Positions 19,018 to 23,377 of a stretch of DNA of 64,000 nt are shown here, piece after piece. Source of the DNA: Actinomycetota bacterium. GTDB lineage: Bacteria; Actinomycetota; Acidimicrobiia; Acidimicrobiales; MedAcidi-G1. Each line of letters opens with the position of its first letter. Positions within the stretch are counted from its first letter, which is position 1. The notes under the pieces are model-generated. The model did not search any database. It was not told the DNA's origin and was given only the letters and a program-made list of their open reading frames with translations. Location: the NCBI GenBank assembly GCA_014381745.1, contig JACNLA010000028.1, positions 186,001 through 250,000 of the forward strand, given 5' to 3'. A program made the position numbers and the translations under genes.

Positions 19018-19791
19018 ATGGCCCGGTCAGATGAGCGGCGGTTGCACCCGTTCCTGGATCATTCCGGTGTCTTGGCCTTCGCCCACCGGGGCGGCACCGG
19101 CGACTGGCCCGAGAACACCATGGCCGCGTTTGGGCACGCTGTGTCACTCGGGTACAGCTATCTGGAAACCGACGTCCACCTCACGTCGGACGGGGTTGTC
19201 GTGGCATTCCACGATGACTCGCTGGATCGTGTCACCGACCGGCAGGGCCTCATTTCGGAGCTTTCCTGGAAGGAGGTGTCTGAGGCCCGTGTCGGTGGAA
19301 CTGAAGCAGTTCCTCGGCTCGTAGATCTTCTGGGCGCCTTTCCTGATGCCAAGATCAACATTGACCCAAAAGATGACCCGGTTGTAGGTCCACTCGCCTC
19401 TCTGCTGCTCGACCACGATGCCTTGGACCGGGTCTGTATCGGTGCGTTCTCTGACCGCCGTCTGGATCGCTGCCGCAAGCTCATGGGTGCGGGGCTGTGT
19501 ACGTCAGCCGGCCCAAGGGCCACGGCCCGGTTCCGCCTGGCGAATTTTGGCCTTCCGTTCCCGATGCCTCCGTGGAGATGCCTCCAGGTTCCGATCCGGT
19601 CCTCAGGTATCCGCGTCGTAGACGAGCGCTTTGTCAGGCATGCCCACCGCCTGGGATTGCAGGTGCACGTATGGACCGTCGACGATCCCGTGGAGATGGG
19701 CCATCTCCTCGACCTCGGGGTCGACGGGATCATGACCGACGTTCCGGCGGTCCTGCGTGCGGTGCTGGTCGAACGTGAAATGTGGGCCTGA
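19018..19791 (+). CDS. Glycerophosphodiester phosphodiesterase
   Basis: Hydrolyses glycerophosphodiesters to glycerol 3-phosphate and an alcohol. Seen: AHRGG (22-26), PENT (31-34), E50-T-D52 and the FHDDSLDRVT segment with H65, which together give the metal ligands and catalytic histidine pair. At 257 residues it is a standard single-domain enzyme. No signal peptide, so cytoplasmic (UgpQ-like). It is divergent from pyk. Confidence 0.92.
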   Translation: MARSDERRLHPFLDHSGVLAFAHRGGTGDWPENTMAAFGHAVSLGYSYLETDVHLTSDGVVVAFHDDSLDRVTDRQGLISELSWKEVSEARVGGTEAVPRLVDLLGAFPDAKINIDPKDDPVVGPLASLLLDHDALDRVCIGAFSDRRLDRCRKLMGAGLCTSAGPRATARFRLANFGLPFPMPPWRCLQVPIRSSGIRVVDERFVRHAHRLGLQVHVWTVDDPVEMGHLLDLGVDGIMTDVPAVLRAVLVEREMWA

Positions 19792-19854: not shown

Positions 19855-20259
19855 GTGAACGACGTTGGCCTGGCAGAGATCCGGATCTTCCTTCACCTTC
19901 TGGGTGTGGCAGGGTGGGTCGGCGGACAGCTGACGATGGCCGCCCTCGTCCCGGTTCTGCGCAGGCTTGGACCCGATGCGCCCCGGTTGGCAGCCAACCG
20001 TTTCGGACGGTTTGCGTGGTCGTTCTTTGCTCTTGCCATCGCTACGGGTATCTGGAATCTGTTCGAAGTGGACCTCACGCTGCGCGGAACCCCGTACCTC
20101 ATGACCCTCATGGTCAAGCTGGTGCTCGTGGGCCTGTCCGGTTCAGCCGCTTTGCTCCACAGCAACACCTCCTCCGTCGCTGTTCGGGCAGCCACCGGGG
20201 CACTTGGCGTGCTTACCGCTCTAGGGGCGCTCCTCATGGGAGCGGTCCTGACCGGCTGA
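19855..20259 (+). CDS. Small four-helix membrane protein (CopD-like)
   Basis: 134 residues with four hydrophobic segments at roughly 8-30, 48-67, 78-98 and 107-131. The first helix contains the H-x4-GWVGGQ pattern that resembles the start of CopD-like and related putative heme or copper membrane proteins. The start is a GTG without a convincing Shine-Dalgarno. It is the last clear gene before a long gene-free stretch. Function cannot be assigned beyond the membrane family. Confidence 0.65.
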   Translation: MNDVGLAEIRIFLHLLGVAGWVGGQLTMAALVPVLRRLGPDAPRLAANRFGRFAWSFFALAIATGIWNLFEVDLTLRGTPYLMTLMVKLVLVGLSGSAALLHSNTSSVAVRAATGALGVLTALGALLMGAVLTG

Positions 20260-20323
20260 CTTGGACGCCAGAAGGGCCTGATCTGGCCCGATCTGTGGAA
20301 TACCTGTGCACATCGTCCTCGGG

Positions 20324-20359
20324 TTCTGGGGAAATGTCTGCCGATTCTGGGGAAATGTC
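20324..20359 (+). repeat. Two 15-bp direct repeats 21 bp apart upstream of a promoter
   Basis: TTCTGGGGAAATGTC occurs at 20324-20338 and again at 20345-20359, identical in every base. The 21-bp period is two helical turns, and the second copy ends 9 bp before the -35 box, so an activator bound on one DNA face is plausible. Confidence 0.65.
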
Positions 20360-20368
20360 CGTATTCGG

Positions 20369-20397
20369 TTGACGAAATGCTTCCGGATGCGCATGAT
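20369..20397 (+). promoter_or_regulatory. Promoter with strong -35 box for the predicted RNA
   Basis: TTGACG (20369-20374), 17-bp spacer, CATGAT (20392-20397). Predicted start of transcription is near 20404. Most other promoters readable in this window show only a -10 element, so this one stands out. Confidence 0.55.
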
Positions 20398-20403
20398 GCT
20401 CCC

Positions 20404-20824
20404 ACGCCGAACACGGCGAAGGGATACGGAACCGGATGGAACCGGCACCCGAAGTGGGAGCGAGCGCAAGCTCTGTTTCCGCCGAGGAGCGCTGAGACCC
20501 TGGGAAAGCCCCGGAGAAGTGTTCGGGGAGGACCGCAACCACGTTTCTCTCGAAGGGGAGGAACGGGTCGGCCAGTGACACGCAGGTGTCGAGGCCGGTG
20601 GAGCGAGCCCGGGTCGCAAGATCCGGTGGAGCGCCGTCGGACGAGATACCTACCGGGTCCGGGCGATTCCTGGTTGCACCGCTGCCCTCGGGTGGTGGTG
20701 TTCACCGGGTGGGAGTGGAACGATAGGAGCGGCTCCAAGGAGTTGACCGGTTCGCCGGGAGGCTACTTGGAGCCGTTTCCGCGTCTACGGGCGGCCCGAT
20801 GAGCGTTCAGATCGCCGCGGAACC
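20404..20824 (+). ncRNA. Candidate large structured RNA, class unknown
   Basis: A series of local helices, read directly from the sequence. 20405-20418: 5-bp stem, AACA loop. 20462-20473: GAGC/GCTC with a GCAA tetraloop. 20509-20528: CCCCG/CGGGG. 20531-20569: GACC/GGTC enclosing a 10-bp stem (20542-20565) with a 4-nt loop. 20570-20596: GGCC/GGCC then GACAC/GTGTC. 20609-20626: 7-bp stem, GCAA loop. 20730-20775: perfect 10-bp CGGCTCCAAG/CTTGGAGCCG enclosing CCGG-TTCG-CCGG. 20777-20822: TTCCGCG/CGCGGAA. A long-range helix, CCGA+GCGC (20482-20492) with GCGC+TCGG (20631-20640), closes a junction over four of these hairpins. GNRA and UUCG caps are typical of stable RNAs. RNase P RNA, tmRNA, SRP RNA and group I/II intron hallmarks are absent. 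Ends are approximate. Confidence 0.5.
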
Positions 20825-20830
20825 AACCTG

Positions 20831-20900
20831 CGGGGATGTTACATGATCGCAACACATACCCCGTGGATGTTGCGACAATGTTTCGCTGGCATCCACCCCG
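20831..20900 (+). promoter_or_regulatory. Leader with mutually exclusive stems before the small membrane protein gene
   Basis: CGGGG (20831-20835) can pair with CCCCG at 20859-20863 or at 20896-20900. TCGCAAC (20847-20853) pairs perfectly with GTTGCGA (20869-20875). GTGGATG (20863-20869) pairs with CATCCAC (20890-20896). These cannot all form together, as in attenuators or riboswitches. No known ligand motif is recognised. It could also be the 3' part of the upstream RNA. Confidence 0.35.
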
Positions 20901-20991
20901 AAATTGTGCAAGCCTCCTAACGTTGAGTCATACAGACCAGATCCGGCTCGATCCCGAGTCGGTGGCTGACAACAAAAAGGGGTAAACCATA

Positions 20992-21312
20992 ATGATGTCA
21001 ACCATCCTCACCCTGATCGTCATGGCGATCATTTTTCAGGGTGTTGTGGCAGTTCTGGACAGCATTCTCGACACCGTCGGTGTCAACAGCATGCTTAAGG
21101 GTCTGCCCGTCATCGGTGCCAACCTGACACTGATCTGGGCGTATCTTTTCGTCCTGATCAGCGGCGTGGGAGGCTTCGGCTTCGGTGCGTCAACAGAGGT
21201 CCTGGGACTTGGTGATCTTGGTGTCGACATTGGAACGGCGCTGGCAATAGTCGGCTTCATTCCGATCAAGGACGCCGCTATTGGTGCGCTGGGCAAGGGC
21301 CTGGCACGCTGA
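20992..21312 (+). CDS. Small hydrophobic membrane protein, unknown
   Basis: 106 residues with hydrophobic segments at about 3-24, 40-62 and 80-92, separated by short polar turns, a glycine-rich FGFG stretch and a short basic end. The N-terminus starts with two methionines; AAGGGG lies about 10 nt before the first. I do not recognise a family. It is followed by a strong terminator and preceded by the structured region, so it is an independent unit. Its size and topology would suit a small membrane accessory protein. Confidence 0.7.
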   Translation: MMSTILTLIVMAIIFQGVVAVLDSILDTVGVNSMLKGLPVIGANLTLIWAYLFVLISGVGGFGFGASTEVLGLGDLGVDIGTALAIVGFIPIKDAAIGALGKGLAR

Positions 21313-22912: not shown

Positions 22913-23154
22913 CGGGCATCTCCTGGGGGTACAGCCTGAAATCCGGGTGAGCCGCCGGTCCCGCTGTCTGCCGTATCTGTATGTGGATGCTGTTGCATGC
23001 TGTCCCGGACGATACATGCCGCTGAACTTCAGCCTCCGGAGGGCGCCCGAAGATCCGGACCCAAACCCGAAACAACCGCCACAACGCCTCTGTGACAGAT
23101 GACATCTGGGTCTCGTCACGAAGTGCGGCTATCTTGTCAGGTGCTGACATAACC
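22913..23154. other. Spacer between divergent units, nothing further recognised
   Basis: This stretch must hold the promoters of the nucleotidyltransferase gene and of the gcvP riboswitch transcript. I see no clear -35/-10 pair on either strand and no protein gene. Confidence 0.4.
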
Positions 23155-23345
23155 CCTGTGGGAGAGACCCCGGCTGGACCGGGGCGCCGAAGGAGCAACC
23201 GCCCTCGGAAACTCTCAGGCGACTGGACCGCGGGGGCTGGCAACTCTGGAGAGTGACCGGCTACAACCGGTCCACCGACGGGGCAAGCCTGGCAGCGGAC
23301 TCCGGTCCGCGGCGGGTCCATCTCTCAGGTACCGGACAGAGGAGG
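23155..23345 (+). promoter_or_regulatory. Tandem glycine riboswitch
   Basis: Aptamer 1 (about 23157-23232) shows GGGAGAG, GCGCCGAAGGAGCAA and AACTCTCAGGC...GGACCG. Aptamer 2 (about 23243-23345) shows CTCTGGAGAG, CACCGACGGGGCAAGC and TCTCTCAGGTACCGGACAGAG. Both carry the family's conserved segments in order. It lies 33 nt upstream of gcvP and should switch that gene on when glycine is plentiful. Confidence 0.95.
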
Positions 23346-23377
23346 GCGCAATCAACACGCGCTCTCCCCTACCCGAA

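Follow-up and report, generated by a model that had tools for sequence, protein, structure and literature searches.

A structured RNA gene that fits no known class tested, conserved in a marine family of Acidimicrobiia

Results

Genomic context of the predicted RNA gene

The window, by which we mean the whole 64,000-nucleotide stretch of Acidimicrobiales DNA under analysis, carries on its plus strand a predicted RNA gene of about 390 nt (20403-20795), recognised by its fold, its homologues, covariation and its presence as a single copy in its own genome. Both ends are predictions. The start falls on CACGCCGAACACGGCG at 20403 (range about 20403-20405), in agreement with the 20404 given by an original prediction made from the sequence alone, whereas the 3' end drawn there at 20824 has to be moved back to 20787-20795, the end of the 3' hairpin plus a few bases. 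On the same strand lie a glycerophosphodiester phosphodiesterase (GDPD) gene (19018-19791; PF03009, E 1.7e-43), which is the conserved upstream neighbour, a CopD-like membrane protein gene directly upstream of the RNA (19855-20259; PF05425, E 4.8e-4, below the cut-off), and, directly downstream, a gene for a 106-aa membrane protein without a Pfam match (20992-21312). An NT5C gene, which is genus-specific, lies two genes downstream of the RNA.

Both immediate neighbours had been named beforehand and are borne out, the upstream one through its weak PF05425 match; the small membrane protein gene is present as described but was found only in the window's genus (six loci, 91-94% protein identity within the genus), and since it is genus-specific it is not the cis target of the RNA. 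Across the family, the RNA gene mostly lies downstream of the GDPD gene and usually also of the CopD-like gene, on the same strand. The CopD-like gene is syntenic in most of the family and missing in genus g3, and synteny with the GDPD gene was seen in the family and in several other families of the class.

Fold, helices and covariation

That this stretch folds into a multibranched RNA beyond chance had been judged by eye, and the folding energies agree with that judgement. The plus strand of 20404-20824 reaches a minimum free energy of -220.4 kcal/mol, against a mean of -186.8 (sd 5.7) for 100 dinucleotide-preserving shuffles, none of which folds as well (z -5.9), while the minus strand attains only z -1.2, an asymmetry that in itself argues for a plus-strand RNA. 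Folding well past shuffled sequence was also found in 22 homologues of 35-79% GC, and because those of 43-46% GC reach z -9.2 and -11.3, base composition is not the cause. When the window RNA is made to adopt the covarying helices, its folding energy worsens by only 3 kcal/mol (-203.7 against -206.8 unconstrained), and UUCG and GNRA loops are about four to eight times over-represented in the homologues (observed versus expected: CUUCGG 21 versus 2.5, CGCAAG 22 versus 3.4, CGAAAG 16 versus 3.9).

The 5' end of the RNA (20405-20414) pairs with 20519-20528 to form helix P1, which closes a 5' domain, has 98.3% of its cells paired with three pairs changed on both sides (26 sequences), and is followed immediately by a strongly conserved GGGGAGGACCGCAACC stretch. 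P1 takes the place of the long-range helix originally drafted between 20482-20492 and 20631-20640, several pairs of which break in sister species; it is P1 that covaries. The hairpins drawn by hand fared better: the GCAA-capped stem at 20462-20473, inside the 5' domain, keeps 98.7% of its cells paired in the family, and the 10-bp hairpin after P1 (20542-20565) has, in each of its seven scored pairs, two-sided changes that leave the pair intact, and it also varies compensatorily inside the window's genus. It is followed by a hairpin with a GACAC/GUGUC inner stem (20569-20597; inner stem 100% of cells paired) and by a GGUC-GCAA-GAUC hairpin at 20612-20623 (drafted as 20609-20626), whose pairs are kept in 6/6 genus members, two via a one-sided change.

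The last element is the 3' hairpin (20717-20787; core 20726-20779, AGGAGCGGCUCCAAG-G-AGUUGACCGGUUCGCCGGGAGGCU-A-CUUGGAGCCGUUU), which takes in the stem predicted at 20730-20775. This stem proves to be part of a class-wide hairpin with clear compensatory changes and a near-invariant core, CCGAG-R-AG...CU-A-CUCGG, and it is by the 3' hairpin that the RNA class is defined. Examined by hand, its internal loop is symmetrical, with a tandem G-A plus an R-A mismatch. A kink-turn has a three-nucleotide bulge; the symmetrical loop lacks one, and we rejected that motif. A U run, poor in the window's genus and good in others, comes after the hairpin, so that most relatives finish U-rich; the hairpin is a probable terminator, termination being inferred.

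Covariation, without which the original prediction would have failed, was present in both the 5' part and the 3' hairpin. When 26 sequences of the 5' part are aligned, standard pairs fill 94.6% of cells, a share that drops below 50% when partners are slid by one column; two-sided change occurs in 21/43 pairs (shuffled mean 11.1) and in 73 cells (20.3 in shuffles), values reached by none of 500 shuffles in either case. For the 3' hairpin (39 sequences), 11/27 pairs are changed on both sides against a shuffled mean of 7.0 (0/500). A home-made tree-based, pair-by-pair G-statistic with APC, akin to R-scape, returned no individually significant pair in the family alignment, because that alignment holds only about 3 substitutions per column, and double canonical changes on the tree numbered 64 against 15.7 expected, about four times the null. 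The evidence for covariation is thus that of whole helices and of enriched double changes on the tree, and the shuffle controls do not remove relatedness.

Promoter and upstream sites

A sigma70-type promoter, TTGACG-17-CATGAT, precedes the RNA on the plus strand, with its -35 box at 20369-20374 (TTGAY is family-conserved) and its -10 box 17 bp further on at 20392-20397 (CAWGAT stands at the same distance in most of the family), giving a family consensus of TTGAC-17-CAWGAT. Further upstream, also on the plus strand, are two tandem sites 11 bp apart, CTGTGGA (20293-20299) and CTGTGCA (20304-20310), whose position and spacing are kept wherever the upstream region of a family member can be read and which we infer to be activator or DNA-bending sites, and two family-conserved copies of CTGGGGAAAT 21 bp apart (20326-20335 and 20347-20356). 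Similar CTGGGGATTT sites occur upstream of the RNA in other families of the class. In the window sequence the successive spacings of the four sites and the -35 box are 11, 22, 21 and 22 bp, and with the second CTGGGGAAAT beginning 22 bp ahead of the -35 box, all four sites lie on one helix face. This spacing by whole turns of the helix suggests, by inference, a protein bound on one face or phased A/T tracts. Some relatives have upstream sites that look like DnaA boxes (TGTGGACAA), and others have sites like phased A/T tracts.

The promoter was also sought in distant copies, 60-620 bases upstream. Among the 67 distinct copies examined, a TTGAC-17/19-YANNNT pattern stands on the RNA strand in 58 and on the reverse strand in none; this test, which is independent of the hairpin, shows the distant copies to be genes. 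Conservation of the promoter's place and strand speaks strongly, though indirectly, for transcription of the RNA, in the absence of transcript data.

Distribution in the family and class

Searching 61 genomes at the DNA level, we found homologues in 36, all of the window's family: 35/36 other family members were matched and 0/24 genomes of other families of the order. A covariance model of the hairpin found the RNA in 43/48 family genomes, including 23/23 near-complete ones. The 25-base pattern of the 3' hairpin, run against 84,980 species genomes, hit 36 stretches, all but one labelled actinobacterial or acidimicrobial, including marine MedAcidi-G1 and MedAcidi-G2B; the single stretch labelled as a gammaproteobacterium is probably mislabelled, a suspicion raised by its carrying the same GDPD gene. 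The pattern is absent from viral contigs and the RNA had no match in phage or plasmid records; with one copy in its own genome, a mobile element was rejected.

Class-wide relatives were found with covariance models (R1-R3) built on the 3' hairpin, the narrow model matching 57/395 genomes across the class Acidimicrobiia and the wider one 97/298 genomes of the order. Over all searches, ten weak hits were set aside as likely chance. The class-wide matches share CCCCGAG-R-AG...CU-A-CUCGGGG, in which 5/11 pairs have changed on both sides. Length varies far more. The form of the window's genus (g1) has about 390 nt and that of g3 only about 250 nt, whereas in five further genera (g2, g4, g5, g6 and relatives) there is mostly an extra ~200 nt, inserted between the middle part and the 3' hairpin, for a total of ~610 nt, with three shorter exceptions. 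The class-wide short form has ~160-300 nt, and as the distance from start to hairpin in distant copies is mostly 90-330 nt, the 610-nt form is an elaboration. One locus has two hairpin matches 355 bp apart on one strand (G964:C357:1314-1367 and 1669-1723), which may reflect tandem duplication of the gene, and three genomes (G043, G037 and G819) have two hairpin matches each.

Hairpin forms in other classes of Actinomycetota

Most genomes in two samples of the phylum (396 and 386 genomes) gave no match to the hairpin model. Family f85 has full copies with a promoter; in f82, f105 and f108 the promoter is followed at once by the hairpin. Seven loci were noted in which a promoter stands directly ahead of a hairpin of the conserved type. 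Hairpin-only RNA genes of ~60 nt in other classes are therefore possible, and hairpin-only forms that carry both promoter and U run mark the 3' hairpin as the part that is essential.

In f76, a family of AT-rich genomes of 1.2-2.2 Mb, 21/35 genomes contain a 170-nt RNA, in as many as three copies, that is built of a 5' domain closed by P1, a hairpin and a U run and stands behind mostly perfect TTGACA-TATATT promoters. Thirteen f76 loci (L214, L218, L221, L223 and L229-L237) share two invariant motifs, CAGGAGGCAAC and AGAAAAG, as well as a terminator hairpin with CCCCGAG. This RNA has no match in Rfam. Its homology to the window RNA is probable on the argument of shared architecture, but not proven, since the hairpin scores are individually weak (E 0.03-0.5).

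Known RNA classes and protein coding

Over the whole window, Rfam 15 at gathering score returned only two glycine riboswitch aptamers. These stand in tandem at 23149-23346 (RF00504, 70 and 41 bits), directly ahead of a 966-aa open frame from 23378 that looks like a glycine dehydrogenase. At loose E-values, region 20260-21000 gave five listings, all well below family thresholds, and neither 20 class-level homologues nor 20 loci further away matched any Rfam family, so that the earlier failure to recognise a class is confirmed in the window and in both sets of relatives. RNase P RNA (RF00010) is not matched anywhere in 20260-21000, even at E-values up to 10, and the genome's own copy is at G000:C22:4923-5298. 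No tmRNA (RF00023) matched in the window, ARAGORN reported none in homologous loci, and the genome's own tmRNA is at G000:C8. SRP RNA, group I/II introns and the other Rfam 15 families likewise had no gathering-score match at the RNA. 6S RNA (RF00013) went undetected in the window genome and about 20 relatives, while control genomes were positive. A CsrA-titrating, CsrB-like sponge was rejected: GGA is only 1.1-fold over shuffled (433 versus 383), without a repeated loop motif. We found no description of the RNA in open-licence full text; a description elsewhere is possible.

The original prediction had also denied the stretch a credible protein gene. The open frames across the RNA do hold in-frame stops in sister species, and their protein identity is lower than their DNA identity, unlike that of the intact, real genes nearby.

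Discussion

We consider it close to certain that 20403-20795 is a non-coding RNA gene. The proposal of a structured, possibly undescribed RNA gene, from which this analysis started, is supported by covariation, fold energy and negative Rfam searches, and the RNA fits no known class tested: it is a new class, although its general kind, the stand-alone structured bacterial RNA, is familiar. To the full reading, a trans-acting structured RNA gene that functions in a ribonucleoprotein (RNP), we give a probability of roughly 0.6, expression and partners being untested. The RNP step is an inference from the pattern of conservation alone, with no transcript, binding partner or phenotype known.

The RNA would be made independently of its neighbours from its own sigma70-type promoter, under the control of a factor, or of curved DNA, at the four phased upstream sites, and would end at the 3' hairpin through intrinsic termination. 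The irregular helix CCGAG-R-AG/CU-A-CUCGG may be bound by a conserved protein or serve in tertiary docking, a contact inferred because the sequence of this helix, and not its pairing alone, is constant across an otherwise variable class. The 5' and middle domains, which range from nothing to 560 nt between lineages, could then serve as a scaffold or as add-on parts. The overall role, likewise inferred, is most likely that of a global regulatory or housekeeping RNP. Only tentatively, and with more doubt than conviction, do we entertain the wider idea of one RNA class, defined by the terminator hairpin, across several Actinomycetota classes, in forms from ~60 nt with hardly more than that hairpin, by way of the 170-nt form of two domains, to the ornate 620 nt, as a global, lineage-wide RNP regulator replacing 6S.

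In other bacteria, 6S is a single-copy regulatory RNA that binds the sigma70 holoenzyme and templates pRNA. The window RNA might be the Acidimicrobiia counterpart of 6S or Ms1, binding RNA polymerase to control transcription by growth phase, as its single occurrence per sampled family genome, the failure to detect 6S RNA in relatives, a short form (~160-300 nt) within the 6S and Ms1 size range and phased upstream sites, expected of a growth-regulated gene, would allow. Architecture tells against it. 6S and Ms1 each form a long rod that is paired at its ends and opens into a bubble at the centre, whereas in the window RNA the 5' domain and the 3' hairpin are separate units, and its hairpin-only relatives would be unable to mimic a promoter bubble. 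The HAD-IB hydrolase gene that flanks Ms1 is not a neighbour either, NT5C being of another family and genus-specific. We regard such a counterpart, whose binding is untested, as unlikely. In favour of it is also that a synteny survey lists Ms1 only for orders of the class Actinomycetes (PMC9130861). An autonomous gene with promoter and terminator would equally suit a small RNA that base-pairs with mRNAs through exposed single strands, and invariant unpaired stretches do exist (GGGGAGGACCGCAACC in the family, GCAGGAGGCAAC in f76); but families do not share them, and the strongest class-wide conservation lies within a helix, the opposite of what a seed region needs, which leaves this an improbable account.

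The small membrane protein gene of the window lies on the same strand ~200 nt past the hairpin, a position that would allow for a cis-acting leader, such as a riboswitch or attenuator. The downstream gene differs between genera, however, so the RNA is not the leader of a fixed gene; the window's one was found only in its genus, most other genera appear by eye to have a convergent gene after the RNA, and the RNA itself ends in a hairpin and U run. We hold a leader to be very improbable, and just as little speaks for a ribozyme or a divergent form of an established RNA with a catalytic or housekeeping role (RNase P, tmRNA, SRP, intron): the RNA is large, multibranched and single-copy, but RNase P RNA and tmRNA sit at other loci, neither window nor relatives match Rfam, and no single-stranded invariant core was seen. 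That the window is GC-rich and that a 141-codon open frame crosses the RNA might still suggest a chance fold of a spacer or an unannotated protein gene, a suggestion with next to no weight left given covariation, promoter strand bias, the folding of low-GC homologues and the frame's stops in sister species.

The trans-acting RNA that we favour can be set beside several known systems. It shares with 6S RNA (RF00013) at most a possible role, having neither a match to that family nor a rod or central bubble. Like CsrB/RsmZ sponges it has many stable hairpins and a stand-alone gene, but it lacks their GGA loop repeats. Ms1 of Mycobacterium and Streptomyces, which binds core polymerase, is likewise an RNA of Actinomycetota that is stand-alone, structured and single-copy; it measures about 230-300 nt, is equally too divergent for Rfam outside near relatives, and adjoins HAD-IB hydrolase and oxidoreductase genes (PMC9130861), where the window RNA has GDPD, CopD-like, small membrane protein and NT5C genes. 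Ms1 also differs in architecture, and the window's hairpin model has no match outside the lineages reported here (396 + 386 phylum genomes). OLE, GOLLD, ROOL and similar ornate bacterial RNAs are likewise large, multibranched and non-coding, with functions partly unresolved (PMC12286853); the window RNA differs in having no Rfam match and in its build of ~60-620 nt around one invariant hairpin.

An RNA that no near-complete genome of a streamlined marine family lacks, and that stands behind a carefully conserved promoter, likely matters to the cell. Large single-copy structured RNAs that last across a bacterial class are rare, and several of them (RNase P, tmRNA, SRP, 6S) carry central functions; Acidimicrobiia abound in the sea, and there is hardly any genetics for them. 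Present across the whole class and in scattered lineages, this is probably an important RNA that has been overlooked and whose job is unknown. Its 3' hairpin offers a precise handle with which to seek protein partners and to follow the RNA into other Actinomycetota, whose short forms ease experiments. A minor observation concerns gene order: four g3 loci (L071, L072, L075 and L078) have the RNA gene on the strand of the RNase P RNA gene and ~1.2 kb upstream of it, and in the window genome these two genes are ~200 kb apart.
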